From contig JAMOQF010000173.1 in assembly GCA_027064125.1 (NCBI GenBank), positions 1-33,707 on the forward strand: 33,707 nucleotides of DNA, written 5' to 3'. The notes beneath the pieces were generated by a model, which had not been told where the DNA came from, searched no databases, and saw only the letters and a program-made list of their open reading frames with translations. The translations under genes were made by a program, and so were the position numbers. This stretch comes from Acidobacteriota bacterium. GTDB lineage: Bacteria; Acidobacteriota; JAAYUB01; JAMOQF01. Below, piece after piece: positions 12,766 through 21,924 of this stretch (position 1 is its first letter; each line of letters opens with the position of its first letter).

Positions 12766-13977
12766 ATGTCAACTTCTAAAAAAATTCCCATTTACATCCA
12801 GATAATTATTGCCGTTATTTTAGGTATTCTGTCTGGAATCTTATTTCCTTCCCACTCATCCATAGGAAATTTCCTTGGAAATATCTTTTTAAAATTACTG
12901 AAAATGCTAATAGCGCCCCTTATTTTTTCTTCAATAGTTGTGGGAGTACTTTCAGCATCAAAAAGTGGAAATTTTTCAAAACTTGGAGTGAGAACACTCA
13001 TATACTATGTATCTACCAGTATGCTGGCAATTTTAACAGGTCAAATACTTGTAAACATAATAAAACCTGGATGCATCCACGCCTCCATTTTACACATGGA
13101 AAAAGTATCAAACTTTTCCACATCAATAGAGATAAGATTCACAGATACAATTCTAAAGATGATTCCAGAAAACATTTTTAGATCCTTTACAAAGGGGGAT
13201 GTTTTACCCATTATATTTTTCTCAATACTGGTGGGATTTTTCATAGGAAAACTAAAGGAAAGGGATGTGAAATTTCTATCTTCAATGTTTGAGGGGCTCT
13301 ACAACCTCATGATGAAAATAACTGAATTTGTGATAAAGTTAGCCCCTTATGGAATTTTCGGCCTCATATATGCAATTGTTGCAAAAAGTGGTATAAAAAT
13401 TTTTAAAAATCTTTTCTACTATTTTCTGACCGTATTCTCAGGGATTTTTGTCCATTTTTTTATAACGCTACCCCTAATCTTTTTTATATTTACAAGAAAA
13501 AACCCATACAAATTCATTAAAAATATGCTTTCTCCACTTTTAACAGCCTTTTCCACAAGTTCCTCCTCAGCGACACTTCCCCTTACCATAAAAACAATGG
13601 TTGAAGAAATAGGGGTATCAAAAGAAGTGGCAAGTTTCGTATTGCCATTGGGTTCAACCATCAACATGGATGGTACTGCCTTATATGAGTGTGTGGCAGT
13701 AATATTCATAGCCCAGGTATATGGGATCCACTTATCCTTTTCCCAACAGGTTATAATAGCTCTTACGTCACTTTTGGTATCAATAGGAGCGGCTGGAATT
13801 CCAATGGCAGGTCTTGTAATGATGACAATAATCTTAAAGGCAGTGGATTTGCCCCTACAGGGGATTGGTTTAATTATTGCAGTTGACAGGTTTCTGGATA
13901 TGTTCAGGACAGCAACCAATGTATTCAGCGATTCGGTGGGAACCTTTGTAATAGACTTCCTGGGCAAAAAAAATTAA
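12766..13977 (+). CDS. Dicarboxylate/glutamate:cation symporter (DAACS family)
   Basis: A 403-residue protein of the GltP/DctA family, normal length. It has ~8 transmembrane helices and the family's substrate-binding elements: the serine-rich hairpin 'AFSTSSSSATLPLTI' (HP1), 'LPLGSTINMDGTALYE' (TM7, with NMDG sodium-site residues), 'GAAGIPMAGLVMM' (HP2) and 'VDRFLDMFRTATNVFSD' (TM8). It should import aspartate, glutamate or C4-dicarboxylates with Na+ or H+; the TM8 residues alone do not settle the substrate. The start ATG has no clear ribosome site. It sits back to back with the NhaD-like antiporter, and a sodium-coupled pair would make sense (inference). Its stop overlaps the convergent archaemetzincin gene by four bases. 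Confidence 0.92.
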   Translation: MSTSKKIPIYIQIIIAVILGILSGILFPSHSSIGNFLGNIFLKLLKMLIAPLIFSSIVVGVLSASKSGNFSKLGVRTLIYYVSTSMLAILTGQILVNIIKPGCIHASILHMEKVSNFSTSIEIRFTDTILKMIPENIFRSFTKGDVLPIIFFSILVGFFIGKLKERDVKFLSSMFEGLYNLMMKITEFVIKLAPYGIFGLIYAIVAKSGIKIFKNLFYYFLTVFSGIFVHFFITLPLIFFIFTRKNPYKFIKNMLSPLLTAFSTSSSSATLPLTIKTMVEEIGVSKEVASFVLPLGSTINMDGTALYECVAVIFIAQVYGIHLSFSQQVIIALTSLLVSIGAAGIPMAGLVMMTIILKAVDLPLQGIGLIIAVDRFLDMFRTATNVFSDSVGTFVIDFLGKKN

Positions 13978-14525
13978 AGCACTTCATCTAATTTTTCAAA
14001 ACAACTCTCACAGGGATAAATGGATTTCCTATCTGTATCTTCAATTGTAAAGGAGTTGTGCATAACACATAGATCATTCAAACAGTGAGTGAGTCCAAAG
14101 GTATGGCCAAGTTCATGAACTATTTCCTTCAAAAGCCTTTCTTTAAATATTTCCACATTGGGAGTCCTATCATAAAATCTCTCACACAATCTGTTAGTGG
14201 AAACAATACAGTAATTTCCATTTAAATGTGCCTCTCCAAATACAAATGTTAAAATGGGGATAAATAGATCCTTTCTCACTATAATACATTTCTTATCTCC
14301 ATCGCTAATGGAATGATTAAAAATAAAGTATCTTAAAATCTCAGTGGAATGATATTGATCTCTAATGGGATCAAAAAATTTATCAAGGGAAAGAGACTCA
14401 AATTGTATAATAATTCTCCTCCTGAATATGTTTGACAACTTTTCAATCATATCACTGTCAATATAAGACTTTGGAACATCCACAAGGGAAATAAATATCT
14501 TTTTCTCACTTCTTTGAAATACCAT
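13974..14525 (-). CDS. amzA: Archaemetzincin zinc metalloprotease
   Basis: A 183-residue archaemetzincin. The extended zinc motif HExxHxxGxxH is present as 'HELGHTFGLTH', followed by the family's second zinc site: cysteines in 'HCLNDLCVMHN' (with the metzincin Met) and 'CESC' near the C-terminus. N-terminal segments 'FGEAHLNGNYCIVS' and 'RLLKEIVHELGH' also match. It is a soluble cytoplasmic protein with no signal peptide. The natural substrate of prokaryotic members is unknown. It is the last gene of the haem-kinase/sigma-54 regulator operon. Its ATG lies inside the 3' end of the regulator (20-base overlap) without a clear ribosome site, implying coupled translation. Confidence 0.92.
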   Translation of the reverse strand: MVFQRSEKKIFISLVDVPKSYIDSDMIEKLSNIFRRRIIIQFESLSLDKFFDPIRDQYHSTEILRYFIFNHSISDGDKKCIIVRKDLFIPILTFVFGEAHLNGNYCIVSTNRLCERFYDRTPNVEIFKERLLKEIVHELGHTFGLTHCLNDLCVMHNSFTIEDTDRKSIYPCESCFEKLDEVL

Positions 14526-15858
14526 ATTTTTTCATTTTATTGTAAAGAGTAGTTCTATCAATATCAAGCACTTTAGCGGCCTGAGAAACGTTATAATCAC
14601 ATTCTTCAAGAACTTTTTTTATGTGGATCTTTTCAAGTTCTGAAAGAGAAAGCCCAGAAGGAATATCAAATTTATCATCTTCATTTCCCATAAATGAAAA
14701 ATCCTCAGTGGTGATTAACTTTCCTCTGGCAACCACAAAGGCTCTCTCGACCGCATTCTCAAGTTCCCTTACATTCCCTGGCCAGGAATAGTGCATCAAT
14801 TTTTTTAACGCTTGAGGTGTGACACCTTCTATATCTTTTCCCATTCTCCTTCTAAGTTGTTTCACGAAATGCTCCACAAGAAGAGGTATATCCTCCTTCC
14901 TTTCTCTGAGCGGTGGGATATGAATATTATAGACATTTAACCTATAAAAAAGATCTTCCCTGAACTTCTTTTCTTCCACCATCTTTCTCAAATCTCTATT
15001 TGTGGCAGAAATAACCCTAAAATCAACTTTTATGGTTTTATTGGAACCAATCCTAGAAATTTCCTTTTCCTGTAATACCCTCAAAAGATCAACCTGCATC
15101 TTAGGAGTCAATTCACCTATTTCATCCAGAAAAAGTGTACCCCCATTTGCAGATTCAAATTTTCCCTTCTTTTTATACAGAGCCCCGGTAAAGGCCCCCC
15201 TTTCATATCCAAAAAGTTCACTTTCTATCAGTCCCTCAGGCAGTGCCCCACAACTTACCACCACCAGGGGTTCAAACCTTCTCATGCTGGCATAGTGAAT
15301 AGCCCTTGCAACCATCTCTTTACCTGTTCCACTTTCTCCAGTTATCAACACTGAAACATCTGTTGGTGCAACCTCTTCAATTGATTTTAAGACCTTTTTA
15401 ATTCCTTTACTCTCACCAACTATGTGTACCTGTTTTAGGGCAGATTCAAGTCTTTCCTTTAATTTTACATTCTCCCTCTCAAGATCTCTGTGGGATACAA
15501 TCTTTTTTACAAGCATTGACACATACTCAGGATCAAAGGGCTTTGTAAGATAATCATAAGCCCCCAATTTCATGGCCTCAACCGCTGTGTTTATGGAAGC
15601 ATATGCGGTCATCATTATCACATCAATAAAAGGATACGTGGATTTTATCTTCTTCAAAACTTCAATTCCATCTATACCTGGCATCTTAATATCCAGAAAA
15701 ACAATATCCACCTCTCTCCTTCCCAAAAAGTTAAAAGCATCATCTGCATTTTCTGCAGTAAACACCACATATCCATCTTCCTCCAACCAATTTTTCATGG
15801 ATTCCCTAACAATTAATTCGTCATCCACAATTAATATGGTTATTTTTTTTCCTTCCAT
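14506..15858 (-). CDS. Sigma-54-dependent (NtrC-class) response regulator
   Basis: A 450-residue regulator with three domains. Receiver (1-~120): acidic pocket D12-D13, phospho-acceptor D56 in 'VFLDIKMPG', and K106. AAA+ domain (~146-375): Walker A 'GESGTGKE' at 174-181, the sigma-54 contact loop 'GAFTGA' at 221-226, Walker B 'GGTLFLDEIGE', and arginine-finger region 'FREDLFYRLN'. Fis-type helix-turn-helix at the end ('NVSQAAKVLDIDRTTLYNKMKK'). All signature residues are intact. Ten bases separate it from the upstream haem-motif kinase, its likely partner. It probably activates its own operon, because a consensus sigma-54 promoter and inverted repeats lie ahead of the first gene, about 5 kb upstream. 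Confidence 0.96.
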   Translation of the reverse strand: MEGKKITILIVDDELIVRESMKNWLEEDGYVVFTAENADDAFNFLGRREVDIVFLDIKMPGIDGIEVLKKIKSTYPFIDVIMMTAYASINTAVEAMKLGAYDYLTKPFDPEYVSMLVKKIVSHRDLERENVKLKERLESALKQVHIVGESKGIKKVLKSIEEVAPTDVSVLITGESGTGKEMVARAIHYASMRRFEPLVVVSCGALPEGLIESELFGYERGAFTGALYKKKGKFESANGGTLFLDEIGELTPKMQVDLLRVLQEKEISRIGSNKTIKVDFRVISATNRDLRKMVEEKKFREDLFYRLNVYNIHIPPLRERKEDIPLLVEHFVKQLRRRMGKDIEGVTPQALKKLMHYSWPGNVRELENAVERAFVVARGKLITTEDFSFMGNEDDKFDIPSGLSLSELEKIHIKKVLEECDYNVSQAAKVLDIDRTTLYNKMKKYGISKK

Positions 15859-15867
15859 TTTAACCCC

Positions 15868-17430
15868 TCAATTTACAGGTAATTTTATTGTAAAGGTTGT
15901 ACCTTTATTCACAGTACTTTCAGCACTTATTGTGCCACCAAATTGCTGGATAATTCCATACACAACGAAAAGTCCTATACCAACACTTTTCCCATCATCC
16001 TTAGAAGAATAAAAGGGCTCAAAAATATGCTTTAGATGTTCTTTTGGGATTCCCACCCCTTCATCAGACACTTCTATTTCAATTACCCTATCAATTTCAT
16101 TGTATTTAGCAGTAATCCTGATTTCCCCTCCCATGGGCATGGCATCTATTGAATTTTGAATTAAATTCATAAATACCTGTTGAAGTTTATTGGGATCTCC
16201 CTTTATAGGTGGCAGGTTTTCTTCTATTTCAAGACTAATGACCACATTTAAGTCCTTTATTTTTAAATCCATCATTCTTTTTGCCTTCTCTATCACATTA
16301 CCGACATGGATTGTAAGCATGGGAGCACCAGATTCATTCCGGGAAAAGGCAAGTAATTCCTTTACCATGTTTCCACATCTTTTTGCTTCATTTTCCATTA
16401 ACTTTAACTGTTCCTCTATTTTTTCAACGTCCTTTTCTGTAAAATTTTTTTTCTTCAGTTGTTTCCTTATAAGATTTATAAATATCACAAGTCCAGAAAT
16501 TGGATTATTTATTTCATGTGCTATCACGGCTGCAAGCCGCCCAAGGGAAGACATTTTCTCTGCCTCAAGTATTCTCTTTTGAGCCATCCTCAACTTTTCA
16601 GTCTTTATTTCAACTTTCTTCTCAAGATTTCTCGTAAGATCATCTACTTTAAGGACCATTGTGTTAAAAGCCCTTGCAAGTTCACCTATTTCATCTCTAT
16701 TCTGAACAGGAAGTTGAACATTAAAATCCCCATCAGCGACCCTTTTTGTACCATTGACAAAATCCCTTAAGGGATGGGTTATAAATTTTTTAATCATAAG
16801 AATTATGACAAAGGAAAAGAAAAATATAAAAAATATAGAAACAAACAATATAGCCTTTTCACTCTGTCTCCGGGTTTGGTACAGTTTTTCAGTACACACG
16901 GAAATGTCTAAAAAACCCAATATTTTTTCCCTGTTGCTATGGGCATGGCATGAAGCATTATAACACTTTGGCTTATTGTAAATGGGAGTTATCCCCTTTA
17001 ACTTACAGGAGGTTTCATTACCCCTTTCATAAAAAACAAGGGACTTATTTTTTTTCAGGTTTTCCCTACTATGACATACAAGGCACTTTTTACTCTTATT
17101 TTTTAAGAAAACCTTTCCAAGTTCCCCTTTATCTTTTGAAGCACATACCTTTCCAGAGTGATCTATTATCCGCAAATCCTTTATCAATTTCTGTTTTCCA
17201 ATCAATCTAATGGTTTTATTAATTGCATCAGTATTATTTGACATCATGTCAAATTCAAGAGAATTTAGAATCGTTTCTGAAATGGAATTCATATCCAAGA
17301 ATAGATACTCCATATAAATTTTTCTCTGATATTTTAAAAGTAAAAATGTAAAAAAGAAAAAGGCCACCAGAAGGGCGGTGGCCACAATTAAACCAATCTT
17401 AAAGGTTATTGAGTTAAATCCCTTTCCCAT
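15868..17430 (-). CDS. Sensor histidine kinase with two c-type haem motifs, HAMP domain
   Basis: A 520-residue kinase. Membrane segment 1 is ~10-33, a periplasmic sensor is ~34-194, membrane segment 2 is ~195-217, and a HAMP domain is at ~214-268 ('DGDFNVQLPVQNRDEIGELARAFN'). HisKA has H305 ('HEINNPISG', NtrB-like). HATPase_c has 'NLIQNSIDAM', 'DEGVGIP' and 'GIGLFVVYGI'. The sensor carries CxxCH at 116-120 ('CLVCH') and Cx4CH at 156-162 ('CYNASCH'), so it may bind two covalent haems and sense redox, oxygen or NO (inference). I start it at the ATG at 17430, with TAGGA ahead, rather than an upstream codon that would overlap the hybB-like stop. Gene order pairs it with the sigma-54 regulator. 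Confidence 0.92.
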   Translation of the reverse strand: MGKGFNSITFKIGLIVATALLVAFFFFTFLLLKYQRKIYMEYLFLDMNSISETILNSLEFDMMSNNTDAINKTIRLIGKQKLIKDLRIIDHSGKVCASKDKGELGKVFLKNKSKKCLVCHSRENLKKNKSLVFYERGNETSCKLKGITPIYNKPKCYNASCHAHSNREKILGFLDISVCTEKLYQTRRQSEKAILFVSIFFIFFFSFVIILMIKKFITHPLRDFVNGTKRVADGDFNVQLPVQNRDEIGELARAFNTMVLKVDDLTRNLEKKVEIKTEKLRMAQKRILEAEKMSSLGRLAAVIAHEINNPISGLVIFINLIRKQLKKKNFTEKDVEKIEEQLKLMENEAKRCGNMVKELLAFSRNESGAPMLTIHVGNVIEKAKRMMDLKIKDLNVVISLEIEENLPPIKGDPNKLQQVFMNLIQNSIDAMPMGGEIRITAKYNEIDRVIEIEVSDEGVGIPKEHLKHIFEPFYSSKDDGKSVGIGLFVVYGIIQQFGGTISAESTVNKGTTFTIKLPVN

Positions 17431-17437
17431 TTTATTC

Positions 17438-18565
17438 CTAATTTGTGGAATGTTCCTCTTCAAAAATATCAAAATGTTTTACTGCAAAGCCAAAAATCAT
17501 AAAGCATATCACCACAAAGGAAGCGGATACGGCTATTTCCTGCCACGATGGAAAATAATGGGCCTTTGCGGAATACTCCATCGCCGTTGTGGAAACATTC
17601 AATCTATTTAATAAAAATCCAAGCACATAGGAAAATCCCGCAACAAATACGCCTGCTCTTTTGGAGATCCACTTTCTATTAAACACAACAATTGTTGGGA
17701 TAAGTGTCCACATTATAAATTCAAGCCACCACATAAAGGAATAAAAAGTTCCATCAAATAGATAGTGCAACTTATTGTGAACCAATAGATCTTCAAAATA
17801 TGCCACGAAAAAGGTTAACTGGATAACAACCATTCCCCTTGCAAGGTTGGCAAGAATCTCTGTGGGAACCTCATGCTTTAAAGCCCTCCAACTGAGATAG
17901 GATTCCACTATTGTCATCCCAAGACCAGCACCAATTGAAGTAATAAAAAAGTATACTGGAAGCAATTTCGAATACCAGAGAGGATATAATTTCTCAGGTA
18001 CAATTACATAGAGTGTCCCAAGAGAAGACTGGTGTAATGTGGAAATCAACACCCCTAAAATCACAAGTAAGATATATATACCCTTCAAAAAGTTGACAGG
18101 TTTCCTAAACCACTTAAATTTATCAAGGGTGAAGGAGGAAAATTCGAGAAAAAGTACAAAGGTATATGTCGCCACACAAAGCGCCAGTTCAAACATGGGA
18201 GAATGGTGATTCCAATATACAAGGGGATGCCAGATGTCAAAATATTTACCCAAATCCCATAAAAGTGCAATCCCTACAAACACATATCCCATAAATGCAG
18301 TTAAAACTGTTGGTTTTACAATGCAGTGATACTTTTTCAAATTAAAGATATATACAATGGCCGTAATTGTAAAGCCACCCGCAGCAAGTCCAACACCAGA
18401 AATTACATCAAAGCCAATCCACAATCCCCATGGAAATTTATCTGAAAGATGGGTAGCATAACCAAGCCCATAAAAAAATCTTTGAAATGTGGCAATTATG
18501 CCAAAAAGCAGGATTATAGCTGCAACAACTCTCCAGAAGGTTATCTTTATATTTTTAATATTCAT
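17438..18565 (-). CDS. hybB: HybB/NrfD-family integral membrane quinone-interacting subunit
   Basis: A 375-residue polytopic membrane protein of the HybB branch of the NrfD/PsrC superfamily. It has about ten hydrophobic helices. HybB-type signatures are 'FPWGLWIGFDVISGVGLAAGGF', 'SPMFELALCVATYTFVLFLEF', 'STLHQSSLGTLYVIVPEKLYPLW' and 'SIGAGLGMTIVES'. Family members anchor an iron-sulfur subunit and exchange electrons with menaquinone or ubiquinone across the inner membrane. In E. coli, HybB serves hydrogenase 2. No hydrogenase large or small subunit is encoded here, so the partner enzyme must be elsewhere or different. GGGAGGT precedes the ATG. It sits 12 bases after the HybA-like gene and 7 bases before the kinase. 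Confidence 0.9.
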   Translation of the reverse strand: MNIKNIKITFWRVVAAIILLFGIIATFQRFFYGLGYATHLSDKFPWGLWIGFDVISGVGLAAGGFTITAIVYIFNLKKYHCIVKPTVLTAFMGYVFVGIALLWDLGKYFDIWHPLVYWNHHSPMFELALCVATYTFVLFLEFSSFTLDKFKWFRKPVNFLKGIYILLVILGVLISTLHQSSLGTLYVIVPEKLYPLWYSKLLPVYFFITSIGAGLGMTIVESYLSWRALKHEVPTEILANLARGMVVIQLTFFVAYFEDLLVHNKLHYLFDGTFYSFMWWLEFIMWTLIPTIVVFNRKWISKRAGVFVAGFSYVLGFLLNRLNVSTTAMEYSAKAHYFPSWQEIAVSASFVVICFMIFGFAVKHFDIFEEEHSTN

Positions 18566-18577
18566 ATTTACCTCCCA

Positions 18578-19363
18578 TTAATCACTTTCACTCTTTTTTT
18601 CAGGTTTTACCCCATCATTTTCAGTAACCTCTATCTTTCTATTGTTCAGCCACCACATTCCCGTTAAAAATGTCGCCCATACAGGGACAATAACAGGTAT
18701 TTTATTTAAAACATTCCAGGTGAGTTCAGGTAGAGGTTTATTGGGTAAATCCATTCTCAATCCCATTTGAGCCACCTTTTTAAGGGGAACATCCTTAGGT
18801 ATAAGAAACATTACGCCTGTTCCACCAACTTCCTTTTCACCATAGACAAATGGATGGTACTTATCGGGATTCTCCTTTATCCTCTTATGTGCCATTTTTA
18901 AAAGTTCATCTCTTTCCCCAAAATATGTTGCACCACCACCTTCGTTTTGACATGCTTCCGCACATGCTGTGGGCAATCCCTTTTTAACCCTTGTGTCATA
19001 GCACATTATACATTTTCTAACCCTGGGTATGGGTTTATGCCACTCATATTTGGGGATACCAAAGGGGCAGGCAATCATACAATATCTACAACCTATACAG
19101 AGATCAAAATCATAAACAACAGGACCTTCCGGTGTTTTATGAAGTGCTGAAACTGGACAAACCGATGCACAGGTGGGATCCACACAATGTCTACATAAAT
19201 TTCTGAAATAGACATCATCTTCAATCTCTTCAAGGATGGTATAATTTGCGTAATTCAATTCCTTTCCAACTTCTCCCGGCAGGTGATTTTCTTTCTTGCA
19301 GGCTTCTGCACATACACCACAACCCAGACATTCAGTTATGTCTATAAGCATAGCCTTACTCAT
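18578..19363 (-). CDS. hybA: HybA-like ferredoxin subunit with four 4Fe-4S motifs and C-terminal anchor
   Basis: A 261-residue electron-transfer subunit. Four cysteine groups are in the HybA/DmsB/NrfC order: C12-C15-C18-C22; 'CRHCVDPTCASVCP'; 'CIGCRYCMIACP'; and 'CIMC' with a later 'CAEAC'. A hydrophobic segment near ~228-247 ('PVIVPVWATFLTGMWWL') matches the C-terminal anchor of HybA. Unlike E. coli HybA there is no N-terminal twin-arginine signal, as the protein opens straight into the first cluster ('MLIDITECLGCGVC'). It may therefore stay on the cytoplasmic side, or be exported by another route. A strong GGAGGG site precedes the ATG. A stable hairpin separates it from the small membrane-protein genes upstream. 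Confidence 0.9.
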   Translation of the reverse strand: MSKAMLIDITECLGCGVCAEACKKENHLPGEVGKELNYANYTILEEIEDDVYFRNLCRHCVDPTCASVCPVSALHKTPEGPVVYDFDLCIGCRYCMIACPFGIPKYEWHKPIPRVRKCIMCYDTRVKKGLPTACAEACQNEGGGATYFGERDELLKMAHKRIKENPDKYHPFVYGEKEVGGTGVMFLIPKDVPLKKVAQMGLRMDLPNKPLPELTWNVLNKIPVIVPVWATFLTGMWWLNNRKIEVTENDGVKPEKKSESD

Positions 19364-19453
19364 TTTTTCCCTCCATAATTTATTATAAATAAAATTATAA
19401 AATATCTTTAAAAAATAGTAAAAATATTTTTAAAAATATTTAAAAATATTTAA

Positions 19454-19481
19454 GAGCCATTCCCTCAAAAGGGAATGGCTC
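19454..19481 (-). terminator. Strong mid-operon hairpin (attenuator, terminator or processing site)
   Basis: Perfect 12-bp arms (GAGCCATTCCCT and its complement) are separated by a four-base loop. On the minus strand the stem is followed by TTAAATATTTTTAAA, a broken T-rich stretch. It lies between the second small membrane protein and the hybA-like gene, inside what otherwise looks like one operon. It could reduce transcription of the redox and regulatory genes relative to the first three, or protect the 3' end of a processed mRNA. The ~90 bases between the hairpin and hybA are almost pure A/T. Confidence 0.65.
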
Positions 19482-19509
19482 CACACTTTAAAAAGTTAAA
19501 CCCATGAAC

Positions 19510-19701
19510 TTACTTTTCTTCGTCAGAATCTAAAGATTCCTTTTTTTCATCCTCTACAGGTTTTCCACCATCCTGAGCAAATACTAAATTGGAAGAAGGG
19601 GAATATTCACCCACACCTTCTCTTCTCCTTCTCAAGGAAAGCACTATTCCATCCACCACTAAAAAAGCCAATATGGTAAATATTACAAGTAATGCAACCA
19701 T
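19510..19701 (-). CDS. Tiny membrane protein with FAQDGGKP motif (copy 2)
   Basis: A 63-residue protein. One N-terminal membrane helix (~2-22, MVALLVIFTILAFLVV...) is followed by an arginine cluster (RRRR near 24-28), placing the tail on the cytoplasmic side by the positive-inside rule. The tail has 'VFAQDGGKPVED' and then an acidic, lysine-rich end. It is clearly related to the neighbouring 64-residue protein: same length, same helix-basic-motif-acidic plan, eight identical residues in FAQDGGKP. GGAGGT lies ahead of the ATG, formed by the last codons of the upstream gene, so translation is coupled. I know no named family for it. Confidence 0.8.
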   Translation of the reverse strand: MVALLVIFTILAFLVVDGIVLSLRRRREGVGEYSPSSNLVFAQDGGKPVEDEKKESLDSDEEK

Positions 19702-19704
19702 TTT

Positions 19705-19899
19705 TTACCTCCTTTCTTCATTTTTATTTTCTTCATTACTATCATCTTCTATGGGCTTACCACCATCCTGAGCAAAAACAGGTGTCCCTATAATATTTTC
19801 TGAGGCCACCTTCTTACGGGCACTTCTCCTTTTATATTCAAGGAAAGAGCCCACAGCACACATTGCAAAAAAAGTTAAAATTACTAATAATACAGTCAT
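19705..19899 (-). CDS. Tiny membrane protein with FAQDGGKP motif (copy 1)
   Basis: A 64-residue paralogue of the next gene. It has an N-terminal membrane helix ('MTVLLVILTFFAMCAVGS'), a basic stretch (KRRSARKK), then 'PVFAQDGGKPIEDD' and a charged tail. Its ATG overlaps the stop of the GcvH-like gene (ATGA), with GGAGG just upstream. Its final AGG AGG codons supply the ribosome site of copy 2. The start resembles that of the GcvH-like protein (MTPLLVILSMV), and that protein also carries an FAADGG motif, so all three probably share a membrane location or partner. Function unknown. Confidence 0.82.
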   Translation of the reverse strand: MTVLLVILTFFAMCAVGSFLEYKRRSARKKVASENIIGTPVFAQDGGKPIEDDSNEENKNEERR

Positions 19900-20723
19900 G
19901 ATATACCTCCATTATTTGTTTTTAGCGAAAATAAAAAATTTTCCACAAACTTATCATAGTTAACCTCCAGATCTTTAAAACTAATCACTCCACCATCTGC
20001 AGCAAATAAATCATTTCCGGTCATCTCTTTTACAAACTCCTCAATCTCATATCTGAACCAATTAATTGCTTCCTTCCCATAGAATAACTTCTGGAGGTCA
20101 ACCAAAAGGTGAAAGGGCTTTACAACATAAACCCAGGGGAATTTACTTACTTTTCCATTTAACTCTGTGAGAATATTTTCATTTATCCTCACGATTTCAC
20201 CAGAAATTGGAGAGAGAATTGGAAAAACTTTCCCATTTTTTACAATCCCAAAGGAAATGTCATCCATGTCCACAAACTCTCCCTCTTCAAATAACATAAT
20301 CTTTTGTGCATCTCTAAAAACACTTCTCAATAAGGGATCAACACCTACCCTCACATATCCATTTCTTTCAATATTTATGAATGTATGACCTCTGTGGTAA
20401 AAATAACAGGTATTAAAATCAAAACCTGAAACCTTTTCAACTCCACCTCTACATGTGGGACAAAAATTAACTTTTCCAAACCTTTGATGTATGTGACAAT
20501 CCATACATTCAAATTCATTTTCACAGATAACTTTATCCTTTAAAGCCCCTGAAAAAAAGTATCTACACACCTTTCTATTATCCCCCAATGAGAAAAACAA
20601 CTCTTTTAACCCCGTCAGCCTGTCAAAGGGGACCACCTCAGAATCCCTTTTTATTTTTTTCTTCCCCTCTTTACTTAAGAGGATCTCAAAAACCATACTC
20701 AATATAACAAGTAGTGGTGTCAT
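19896..20723 (-). CDS. GcvH-like (lipoyl-fold) domain protein with cysteine-rich N-terminal region
   Basis: A 275-residue protein. An N-terminal hydrophobic segment covers ~1-16. A cysteine-rich part has C53, C67, C73, C76, then C88 and C91 ('CPTC'), probably metal-binding. A domain at ~110-205 resembles glycine-cleavage H protein ('GHTFINIERNGYVRVGVDPLL', 'SPISGEIVRINENIL'). The lysine that would carry lipoate is shifted: K165 is seven residues before the SPxSG proline, where H proteins have it eight before, so lipoylation is doubtful. The C-terminal part has 'LFAADGG' (239-245), shared with the two small downstream proteins. No gcvT/gcvP is nearby, so a role in glycine cleavage is unlikely. 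First gene of the sigma-54 operon, with GGGAGGTG ahead of its ATG. Confidence 0.75.
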   Translation of the reverse strand: MTPLLVILSMVFEILLSKEGKKKIKRDSEVVPFDRLTGLKELFFSLGDNRKVCRYFFSGALKDKVICENEFECMDCHIHQRFGKVNFCPTCRGGVEKVSGFDFNTCYFYHRGHTFINIERNGYVRVGVDPLLRSVFRDAQKIMLFEEGEFVDMDDISFGIVKNGKVFPILSPISGEIVRINENILTELNGKVSKFPWVYVVKPFHLLVDLQKLFYGKEAINWFRYEIEEFVKEMTGNDLFAADGGVISFKDLEVNYDKFVENFLFSLKTNNGGIS

Positions 20724-20750
20724 TTCCTTTCACCTCCCAAACAACTATAA

Positions 20751-20766
20751 AGCAATAAATGTGCCA
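20751..20766 (-). promoter_or_regulatory. Sigma-54 promoter (-24/-12) for the GcvH-like/HybAB/kinase operon
   Basis: Read on the minus strand: TGGCAC (20766-20761), five bases, TTGCT (20755-20751), a full match to TGGCAC-N5-TTGCW. Transcription should begin near 20740, leaving a leader of about 17 bases that contains the GGGAGGTG ribosome site of the first gene. The operon itself encodes an NtrC-class activator, which such promoters require. Confidence 0.9.
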
Positions 20767-20830
20767 ATTCAAAAATTATTGAATATCAACAGAAAATGGC
20801 AGATTACCCATTTTTGCAGTGGACGTTTAT

Positions 20831-20910
20831 GTTGGATTTTCCAACGAAATTCTAAAAAGCATTGATTTTCAGCGATAAAATCAGTGTTGATTTATTCTAC
20901 ATATGTAGAA
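20831..20910. promoter_or_regulatory. Three inverted repeats, candidate activator-binding sites
   Basis: GTTGGA-TTT-TCCAAC (20831-20845), TGATTTT-N7-AAAATCA (20863-20883) and the 16-base palindrome TTCTACATATGTAGAA (20895-20910) lie about 65-145 bases upstream of the -24 element. This is the usual zone for NtrC-class enhancer sites. They differ in sequence, so not all need bind the same protein. The last two could also form weak RNA hairpins after tatC, since no other tatC terminator is visible. Confidence 0.5.
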
Positions 20911-20915
20911 AAATC

Positions 20916-21644
20916 TTACAGTCTCTTTTTTACAAAGTAGGAAACGACTATCCCTATCAGATATAAAATAACCATGGGAAGTGCAAAAACGGTCTGTGTT
21001 ACGGGATCTCCTGAAGGAGTTATTATGGCAGCAATTAGAAAAATTATAAAAATAGCCCATTTCAACTTAGAGAGTAAAAACTTGTAATCAATTATTCTAA
21101 AGAGGGTTAAAAATAAAATTAAAATTGGTAGTTCAAAAACAATCCCCATACCCAAAATAACGGTAATTGCAAGGGAAAAATACCCCTTCATAGTAATCAC
21201 AGGGATAAGGCCTTCTGCTTCCTGCATAAAAAAAGAGATCATATACTTTAACCCCACGAAATACCCAAAAAGCCCCCCCAACAAGAAAAGTGTTGTTGAA
21301 AAGAATATAAATGGAATTACAAACCTCTTCTCACTCTTATATAGAGCGGGAGAAATAAAAAGCCATATTTGATGTAAGATAAAAGGAGATGCAATAAAAA
21401 TACCGCTATAAAAGGAAATCTTTAAATAGGTAAAAAATGGCTCACTCAATTCATGAAAGGCAAAAACATTTTTATACTGCCTGGGCGCACATTTAAGCAG
21501 AGGAAGTGCAAGAAGTTGAAAAATTTCTTTATGAAAAAAATATGCAACAATAAACCCAAGTACCAGGTAAAAGAGTATCCACAAAACTCTATTTCTAAAC
21601 TCTTGAAGATGTTCCCAATAACTCTGTCTCTTATTTTTTTCCAT
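20916..21644 (-). CDS. tatC: Sec-independent (Tat) protein translocase TatC
   Basis: A 242-residue six-helix membrane protein that recognises twin-arginine signal peptides. Family features: 'YWEHLQEFRNRVLW' (family HLxELRxRL), 'FHELSEPFFTYLKISFYSGIFIASPFILHQIWLFISPALY' helix-loop region (usually 'P.E.F...K.s......P....Q.W.F..PgLy..E') with the important Glu retained, 'EKRF', 'FELPILILFLTLF', and 'AAIITPSGDPVTQTVFALPMVILY'. I start at the ATG at 21644 (MEKNKRQSYWEHL), with AAGGA upstream. An in-frame longer version would run far into the upstream Tat gene. It overlaps that gene by 14 bases. Confidence 0.95.
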   Translation of the reverse strand: MEKNKRQSYWEHLQEFRNRVLWILFYLVLGFIVAYFFHKEIFQLLALPLLKCAPRQYKNVFAFHELSEPFFTYLKISFYSGIFIASPFILHQIWLFISPALYKSEKRFVIPFIFFSTTLFLLGGLFGYFVGLKYMISFFMQEAEGLIPVITMKGYFSLAITVILGMGIVFELPILILFLTLFRIIDYKFLLSKLKWAIFIIFLIAAIITPSGDPVTQTVFALPMVILYLIGIVVSYFVKKRL

Positions 21645-21924
21645 CCAAATTTTTCCTTTTTTCAAGCACAATTTTCCTTCTTCTTTCAACTTCATCGGGG
21701 GGAAGAATAAGGTTCTCCACTTTCCCATCAATTTTGTTTATTTTCTTAAATTCCTCAAGTTTTATCTCCTTTTCCACACCATCTTTTAGATCTTCAAAAT
21801 AATTCTTTATTTCAGAATAAAATTTTCCAACTCCACGGGCAACTTCTGGCAATTTTTCAGGACCAAACAATACAAAAAAAAGAACAAAAAGTAGCAAAAG
21901 TTCTCCAAATCCTATGTCAAACAT
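21631..21924 (-). CDS. tatB: Twin-arginine translocase TatA/TatB-type subunit
   Basis: A 97-residue protein with the TatA/B plan: a short N-terminal membrane helix ('MFDIGFGELLLLFVLFFVLF'), the FGPEKLPE hinge, then an amphipathic helix ('VARGVGKFYSEIKNYFEDL') and a charged tail. The Glu at position 8 within the helix and the Pro after FG (FGPEKLPE) favour TatB over TatA. Its tail is longer than that of the neighbouring TatA. It lies between tatA and tatC, the common tatABC order. The TatA/TatB distinction is by position and motif only. Confidence 0.88.
   Translation of the reverse strand: MFDIGFGELLLLFVLFFVLFGPEKLPEVARGVGKFYSEIKNYFEDLKDGVEKEIKLEEFKKINKIDGKVENLILPPDEVERRRKIVLEKRKNLDGKK

Follow-up and report, generated by a model that had tools for sequence, protein, structure and literature searches.

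In the window analysed here, the 33,707-nucleotide (nt) stretch of contig JAMOQF010000173.1 (assembly GCA_027064125.1) from an Acidobacteriota bacterium, eight consecutive genes on the minus strand (20723–13974) form one operon, which we read with moderate confidence as a redox-responsive sigma-54 two-component module in which membrane proteins tagged with a DGG motif would be handled by a dedicated archaemetzincin. As judged from sequence comparison, the conservation of the module is well supported, as is its predicted regulation through sigma-54, a candidate dyad and self-activation, and the archaemetzincin–DGG step is the least certain part. Operon proteins were assigned with Pfam and NCBIfam profiles; the host genome is 2.58 Mb and 94% complete, the phylum sample comprised 297 genomes, gene maps were drawn for ~95 loci, and a further search was made in named genomes. 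The open reading frames (ORFs) overlap or sit close together except for a 146-nt gap before the HybA-like gene, and the eight same-direction genes described in an earlier note on this DNA are confirmed. In gene order they are:

19896–20723, minus strand: GcvH-like protein (275 amino acids, aa) with an N-terminal membrane helix, a GcvH fold without the lipoyl-lysine motif and a C-terminal FAADGG motif
19705–19899, minus strand: sm1, 64-aa single-helix protein ending ..VFAQDGGKPIEDD..
19510–19701, minus strand: sm2, 63-aa single-helix protein ending ..VFAQDGGKPVEDE..
18578–19363, minus strand: HmcB/HybA-like 4Fe-4S protein with a C-terminal membrane helix and no Tat signal
17438–18565, minus strand: HmcC/HybB-like NrfD integral membrane protein
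15868–17472, minus strand: sensor histidine kinase (HAMP-HisKA-HATPase) with periplasmic CX2CH (C130) and CX4CH (C170) haem-like motifs
14506–15858, minus strand: NtrC-class response regulator with a receiver, a sigma-54 AAA+ domain with intact GAFTGA, and HTH_8
13974–14525, minus strand: archaemetzincin (peptidase M54), overlapping the regulator gene, with HEXXHXXGXXHC and the Cys4 site intact

The DGG motif and the archaemetzincin

The GcvH-like protein matches the Pfam GCV_H profile (PF01597) at 31.6 bits (cut-off 22.2) and does not reach the NCBIfam equivalog and subfamily scores for GcvH (28.1 vs 117 bits and 23.2 vs 115.85). In its AlphaFold2 model an N-terminal helix precedes a confidently predicted GcvH fold, for which H-proteins are the best Foldseek matches (TM about 0.8), and DGG at 243–245 sits in the loop between two C-terminal helices. 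Across the GcvH-like family the lipoyl-lysine motif E-S-x-K is lost and a shorter turn stands in its place; it is retained in the canonical GcvH rows (L043, L044 and L208). D243, G244 and G245 belong to the only thirteen positions with conservation of 90% or more in an alignment of 80 GcvH-like sequences, and variant motifs are found in a few copies from archaemetzincin-bearing genomes: DAG (L081, L082), TGG (L089) and MGG/SGG (L134). A role as lipoyl carrier in glycine cleavage was rejected, since the lysine motif is lost and a canonical gcvH was not found in the host genome, where PF01597 matches only the operon's GcvH-like gene.

The two tiny proteins have no Pfam or NCBIfam match, and both share their two ends with the GcvH-like protein: the N-terminal helix signature, and FAQDGG followed by a charged tail. 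The helix signature occurs in 31 of 10950 locus ORFs, every one of them GcvH-like, receiver-GcvH-like, sm1 or sm2, and the genome has three coding instances of FA[AQ]DGG, one in each of the consecutive operon genes for the GcvH-like protein, sm1 and sm2. Among the 297 phylum genomes, DNA coding for VFAQDGG is confined to the six genomes of the window clade and three unrelated singletons. By these shared ends, sm1 and sm2 look like GcvH-like proteins from which the GcvH domain is missing. In three relatives a further sm2 gene stands alone at another site, in each case behind a perfect sigma-54 promoter.

The archaemetzincin carries the family consensus HEXXHXXGXXHCX4CXM...CXXC and scores 155.3 bits against NF033823 (cut-off 145). 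In the module archaemetzincins generally, the zinc and Cys4 ligands are intact, bar one mis-called frame (L156), and some have the consensus glycine replaced. The gene adjoins that of the regulator in 38 of 42 cases, 34 of them overlapping or no more than 20 nt apart. The protease is present in all 24 named genomes and, within the phylum, in 46/46 genomes whose GcvH-like protein bears DG[G/A], and in 0/31 whose GcvH-like protein is motif-less. Of the 31 motif-less cases, 29 genomes belong to a receiver-fused clade (the G291 protein being a fragment at a contig end), and the other two, L188 and L198, have unfused proteins; in the receiver-fused proteins the DGG segment is missing and the terminal helix is kept. 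The earlier note had missed this link to the protease, together with the DGG motif itself, the loss of the lipoyl-lysine and the kinship of sm1 and sm2 with the GcvH-like protein.

Several observations weigh against a specific pairing of the archaemetzincin with DGG. The protease occurs in 29 of 218 genomes that have no GcvH-like protein. On the tree the motif has been lost three times and the archaemetzincin in only two of those cases, the third loss (L087) retaining the protease; the large counts (46/46, 0/31) thus overstate independence because there are only two independent co-losses, and the Fisher p-values for the association ignore relatedness. The loci of these co-losses also have no separate NtrC regulator, so DGG may act for the regulator and not for the protease. 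Two archaeal members of the family, AfAmzA and MkAmzA, are inactive on standard substrates (PMC3427221). Archaeal archaemetzincins have no known natural substrate (PMC3427221), and casein is cleaved by AMZ-tk (PMC4681839). Oxidation of the Cys4 site has been suggested as a means of archaemetzincin control (PMC3427221), and such control would suit a redox operon well.

Proteins combining a membrane helix, a CheY receiver and a GcvH-like domain were seen in L032, L033, L036, L165, L167, L178, L182, L183, L184, L189 and L202, where their genes mostly adjoin a haem-motif kinase and an NrfD gene without an archaemetzincin; in these fusions the GcvH-like domain is a response-regulator output. In L031 (1729–8853), L200 and L203, GcvH-like genes share one gene run with Qrc-like genes; these runs encode another GcvH-like protein, rich in cysteine and bearing an F/R-M-A-D-G-G motif, and the L031 run additionally a small helix-DGG protein. 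In relatives of the window, the sm2 genes have a conserved 5' leader in common (L246:4440-4525, L244:2695-2780, L245:3057-3145, L190:13715-13801 and L027:10087-10172), in which two short hairpins flank GGRTCATTGAAATA and a Shine-Dalgarno sequence; it has no Rfam match and is a possible riboswitch or translational control element.

Sigma-54 promoter, upstream dyads and the two-component pair

Three candidate regulatory elements lie ahead of the GcvH-like gene, the coordinates of the last being computed from its reported spacing:

20751–20766, minus strand: sigma-54 (-24/-12) promoter TGGCACATTTATTGCT, an exact match; the five closest relatives have a site that aligns with it
20830–20846, minus strand: CGTTGGAAAATCCAACA, a dyad that may bind the activator, 80 nt upstream of the -24 start
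20885–20901, minus strand: TGTAGAATAAATCAACA, a further candidate dyad, weaker than the first and 135 nt upstream of the -24 start

The consensus sigma-54 promoter that the earlier note had placed at the head of the operon is thus an exact match to the -24/-12 pattern, and rpoN is found in the host genome. The exact pattern occurs at six sites in the 2.58 Mb, that of the operon included, and at none with the reversed-pattern control; the other five sites have no obvious further module gene beside them. Matches of at least 9/10 lie near 43 of 132 module gene runs, where ~3 are expected.

A TGTTG-N7-CAACA dyad stands upstream of all 12 sigma-54 promoters in the window clade (26 found vs 0.29 expected), with most copies some 85, 153 or 172 nt before the -24 element. 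This pattern was derived from the window-clade promoters, where it was first noticed, and the loci outside the clade form the independent test: there, 30 dyads were found vs 0.8 expected, spread over several phyla and nearly all ahead of a GcvH-like gene. The informative measure is positional enrichment; scanning the whole genome for the one dyad of the window is unspecific, giving 21 matches at up to three mismatches vs 7 in the control. The dyad and a -24/-12 promoter also precede stand-alone copies of the small-protein gene. The conserved dyad, the -24/-12 promoter and the intact GAFTGA of the regulator together support autoregulation, and it is likely, as had been proposed, that the operon encodes its own activator. 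In the Terriglobia-type loci L075, L076, L079, L157, L160 and L161, the GcvH-like gene is unlinked to other module genes in the stretch read; most of these loci retain dyad-like sequences and several also a sigma-54 site, so the regulon seems wider than the operon.

The kinase was correctly described as carrying a CxxCH haem motif, and the count is now corrected to two motifs, CX2CH and CX4CH, both nearly invariant in the periplasmic part of 44 relative kinases. Its sensor part matches no Pfam sensor domain, and Foldseek with the full kinase returned mainly kinase cores, leaving the sensor domain unplaced. Haem binding and redox sensing by the kinase would follow from the motifs and the context; the membrane redox switch that had been proposed is supported in part.

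The redox pair, the spread of the module and rival explanations

The NCBIfam profiles place the Fe-S/NrfD pair nearer to HmcB/HmcC (236 and 309 bits) than to HybA/HybB (169 and 270); the pair is better called Hmc-like than specifically HybAB, the label given to it in the earlier note, and some relatives use Qrc. Equivalog cut-offs are missed for Hmc (HmcB 236 of 420, HmcC 309 of 550 bits), likewise for HybA/HybB, and in the window for QrcC and QrcD (63 of 400 and 101 of 570 bits). Membership of a hydrogenase was rejected on the missed HybA/HybB cut-offs and the lack of any NiFe hydrogenase (PF00374) match above cut-off in the 94% complete genome, in agreement with the claim that the pair is not tied to a hydrogenase. 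No second NrfD was found in the genome, and no HmcA multihaem cytochrome is linked in the window operon. A requirement of the redox pair for DGG is disfavoured, since receiver-fused proteins lose DGG yet keep the pair.

Six core genes (GcvH-like, HmcB/HybA, HmcC/HybB, CxxCH kinase, NtrC regulator and archaemetzincin) recur in many families, in the same or shuffled order. All six are present in 25 sampled loci, the genes being neither scattered nor always beside a hydrogenase or reductase, and several Solibacteraceae and Bryobacterales loci have the exact order GcvH-like, Fe-S, NrfD, kinase, regulator, archaemetzincin. The named hosts belong to Acidobacteriota, Thermodesulfobacteriota, Myxococcota (including Anaeromyxobacter terrae), Ignavibacteriota and Planctomycetota. 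On the tree, the genomes of the phylum sample group closely with the named Acidobacteriota, which makes an Acidobacteriota origin of the window probable. The redox pair is not nearby in L029, L030, L092 and L094, and in L031 it is replaced by a Qrc complex (QrcA and QrcD above cut-off); the constant core is consequently the GcvH-like protein, kinase, regulator and archaemetzincin. Tetra- or pentahaem cytochromes are added in L040 and L202, relatives in which weakly HmcA-like cytochromes are found. No description of the gene set was found in the open-access literature, most subscription papers being outside that search, and the earlier note, which knew of no described system with this content, is borne out to that extent: as far as could be found there, the operon is widely shared but undescribed, and Hmc and the orphan ferredoxin–NrfD modules of PMC10924467 come nearest to it.

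The GcvH-like protein, sm1 and sm2 could instead be accessory or assembly subunits of an HmcBC-like complex, with DGG as a subunit contact and the archaemetzincin as a maturation or quality-control protease without DGG specificity. Their genes adjoin the Fe-S/NrfD pair, GcvH-like genes flank QrcA-D-like genes in L031 and L200, respiratory complexes typically include small proteins with a single helix, and an excerpt of PMC10924467 gives Hmc a small hydrophobic subunit, HmcD. We nevertheless consider this explanation unlikely, if deserving of attention, given that receiver-fused GcvH-like proteins lose DGG although the pair is kept, that the loci L029, L092 and L094 have a GcvH-like protein and lack the pair, and that stand-alone sm2 genes have sigma-54 promoters of their own in three genomes.

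That receiver-fused loci are without both a separate NtrC gene and DGG would also fit DGG being a docking site for the NtrC regulator, acting as anti-activator or co-activator, with the GcvH-like and small proteins providing membrane-sequestration feedback and the archaemetzincin acting elsewhere; the dyads mainly precede GcvH-like genes, as expected of a feedback target. Such docking leaves unexplained both the archaemetzincin in every motif-bearing genome and the tight coupling of the regulator and archaemetzincin genes, and it appears improbable. Ordinary neighbourhood drift, with the DGG correlation mainly reflecting shared ancestry, draws on the small number of independent co-loss events; it is very hard to reconcile with a set that recurs in several phyla in shuffled order with dyad and promoter conserved, and with a DGG motif near-invariant across very divergent sequences, and we give it hardly any weight.

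In the reading preferred here, the kinase would use its haems to follow the redox state of either a cytochrome in the periplasm or the HmcBC-like pair with its link to quinone, and would phosphorylate the regulator, which would bind TGTTG-N7-CAACA and turn on the operon. The predicted output is the membrane-anchored GcvH-like protein, sm1 and sm2, with their common N-terminal helix and DGG tag. Having given up lipoyl carriage, the GcvH-like protein may connect the redox complex with the cytoplasm as an adaptor tethered to the membrane. The archaemetzincin is proposed to recognise the exposed DGG segment and probably to cleave at or near it, so that proteolysis would set or reset the output, the tiny proteins being additional or competing targets. 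Tentatively, this may be a new kind of redox-controlled regulated proteolysis, in which an archaemetzincin specific for a DGG tag acts on a non-lipoylated, membrane-anchored GcvH-like protein and its miniatures (anchor and tag only) within one sigma-54 two-component circuit found in several phyla. Archaemetzincins extend from archaea to humans and their in vivo targets are largely unknown; the operon provides a candidate target for which a defined motif, the gene neighbourhood and a cis-regulatory signature are at hand. It also points to a GcvH fold apparently shifted from one-carbon metabolism to membrane redox regulation, and to a widespread module for the control of NrfD-type complexes in poorly studied bacteria.

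Immediately upstream of the operon and on the same strand (20916–21924, minus), sequences resemble TatC and TatA; tatAC adjoins another orphan tail-anchored Fe-S module according to an excerpt of PMC10924467. In L189, NrfD is apparently fused to a cytochrome sequence, with 14 CxxCH in a 1069-aa ORF, and in L193 and L197 NrfD has 3 CxxCH; these NrfD-cytochrome fusions could be ORF-calling or assembly effects.

Comparison with known systems

Hmc, as outlined in the same excerpt (PMC10924467), combines a tail-anchored Fe-S protein and an NrfD/HybB-type subunit without a catalytic subunit, a small hydrophobic subunit and linked regulators. The window operon shares these traits with Hmc of Desulfovibrio (hmcABCDEF, rrf1/rrf2), and its best NCBIfam matches are HmcB and HmcC; it is without the high-molecular-weight cytochrome, HmcE and HmcF, and has in addition the GcvH-like protein, the haem-motif kinase, the sigma-54 activator and the archaemetzincin. 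The orphan modules of a tail-anchored ferredoxin and HybB/NrfD covered in the excerpted part of PMC10924467 likewise have a HybA-like and HybB/NrfD-like pair unlinked to hydrogenase and are usually accompanied by c-type cytochromes; their ferredoxins are Tat-exported, whereas the window protein has no Tat signal, and the excerpt mentions neither GcvH nor archaemetzincin as a module part. With the Qrc menaquinone reductase the operon has in common an NrfD-type membrane subunit, and Qrc is co-encoded with the same GcvH-like proteins in L031; the window QrcC and QrcD scores are far under cut-off, and the window operon has no QrcA or QrcB.

The GcvH-like protein has the fold and the Pfam GCV_H domain of the glycine cleavage H-protein, from which it differs in being membrane-anchored, in lacking the lipoyl-lysine motif and in its C-terminal DGG extension. 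The archaemetzincin has the active-site and Cys4 consensus in common with AfAmzA, MkAmzA and AMZ-tk, and is set apart from them by lying in an operon with a sigma-54 two-component pair and a candidate target motif that co-varies with it.

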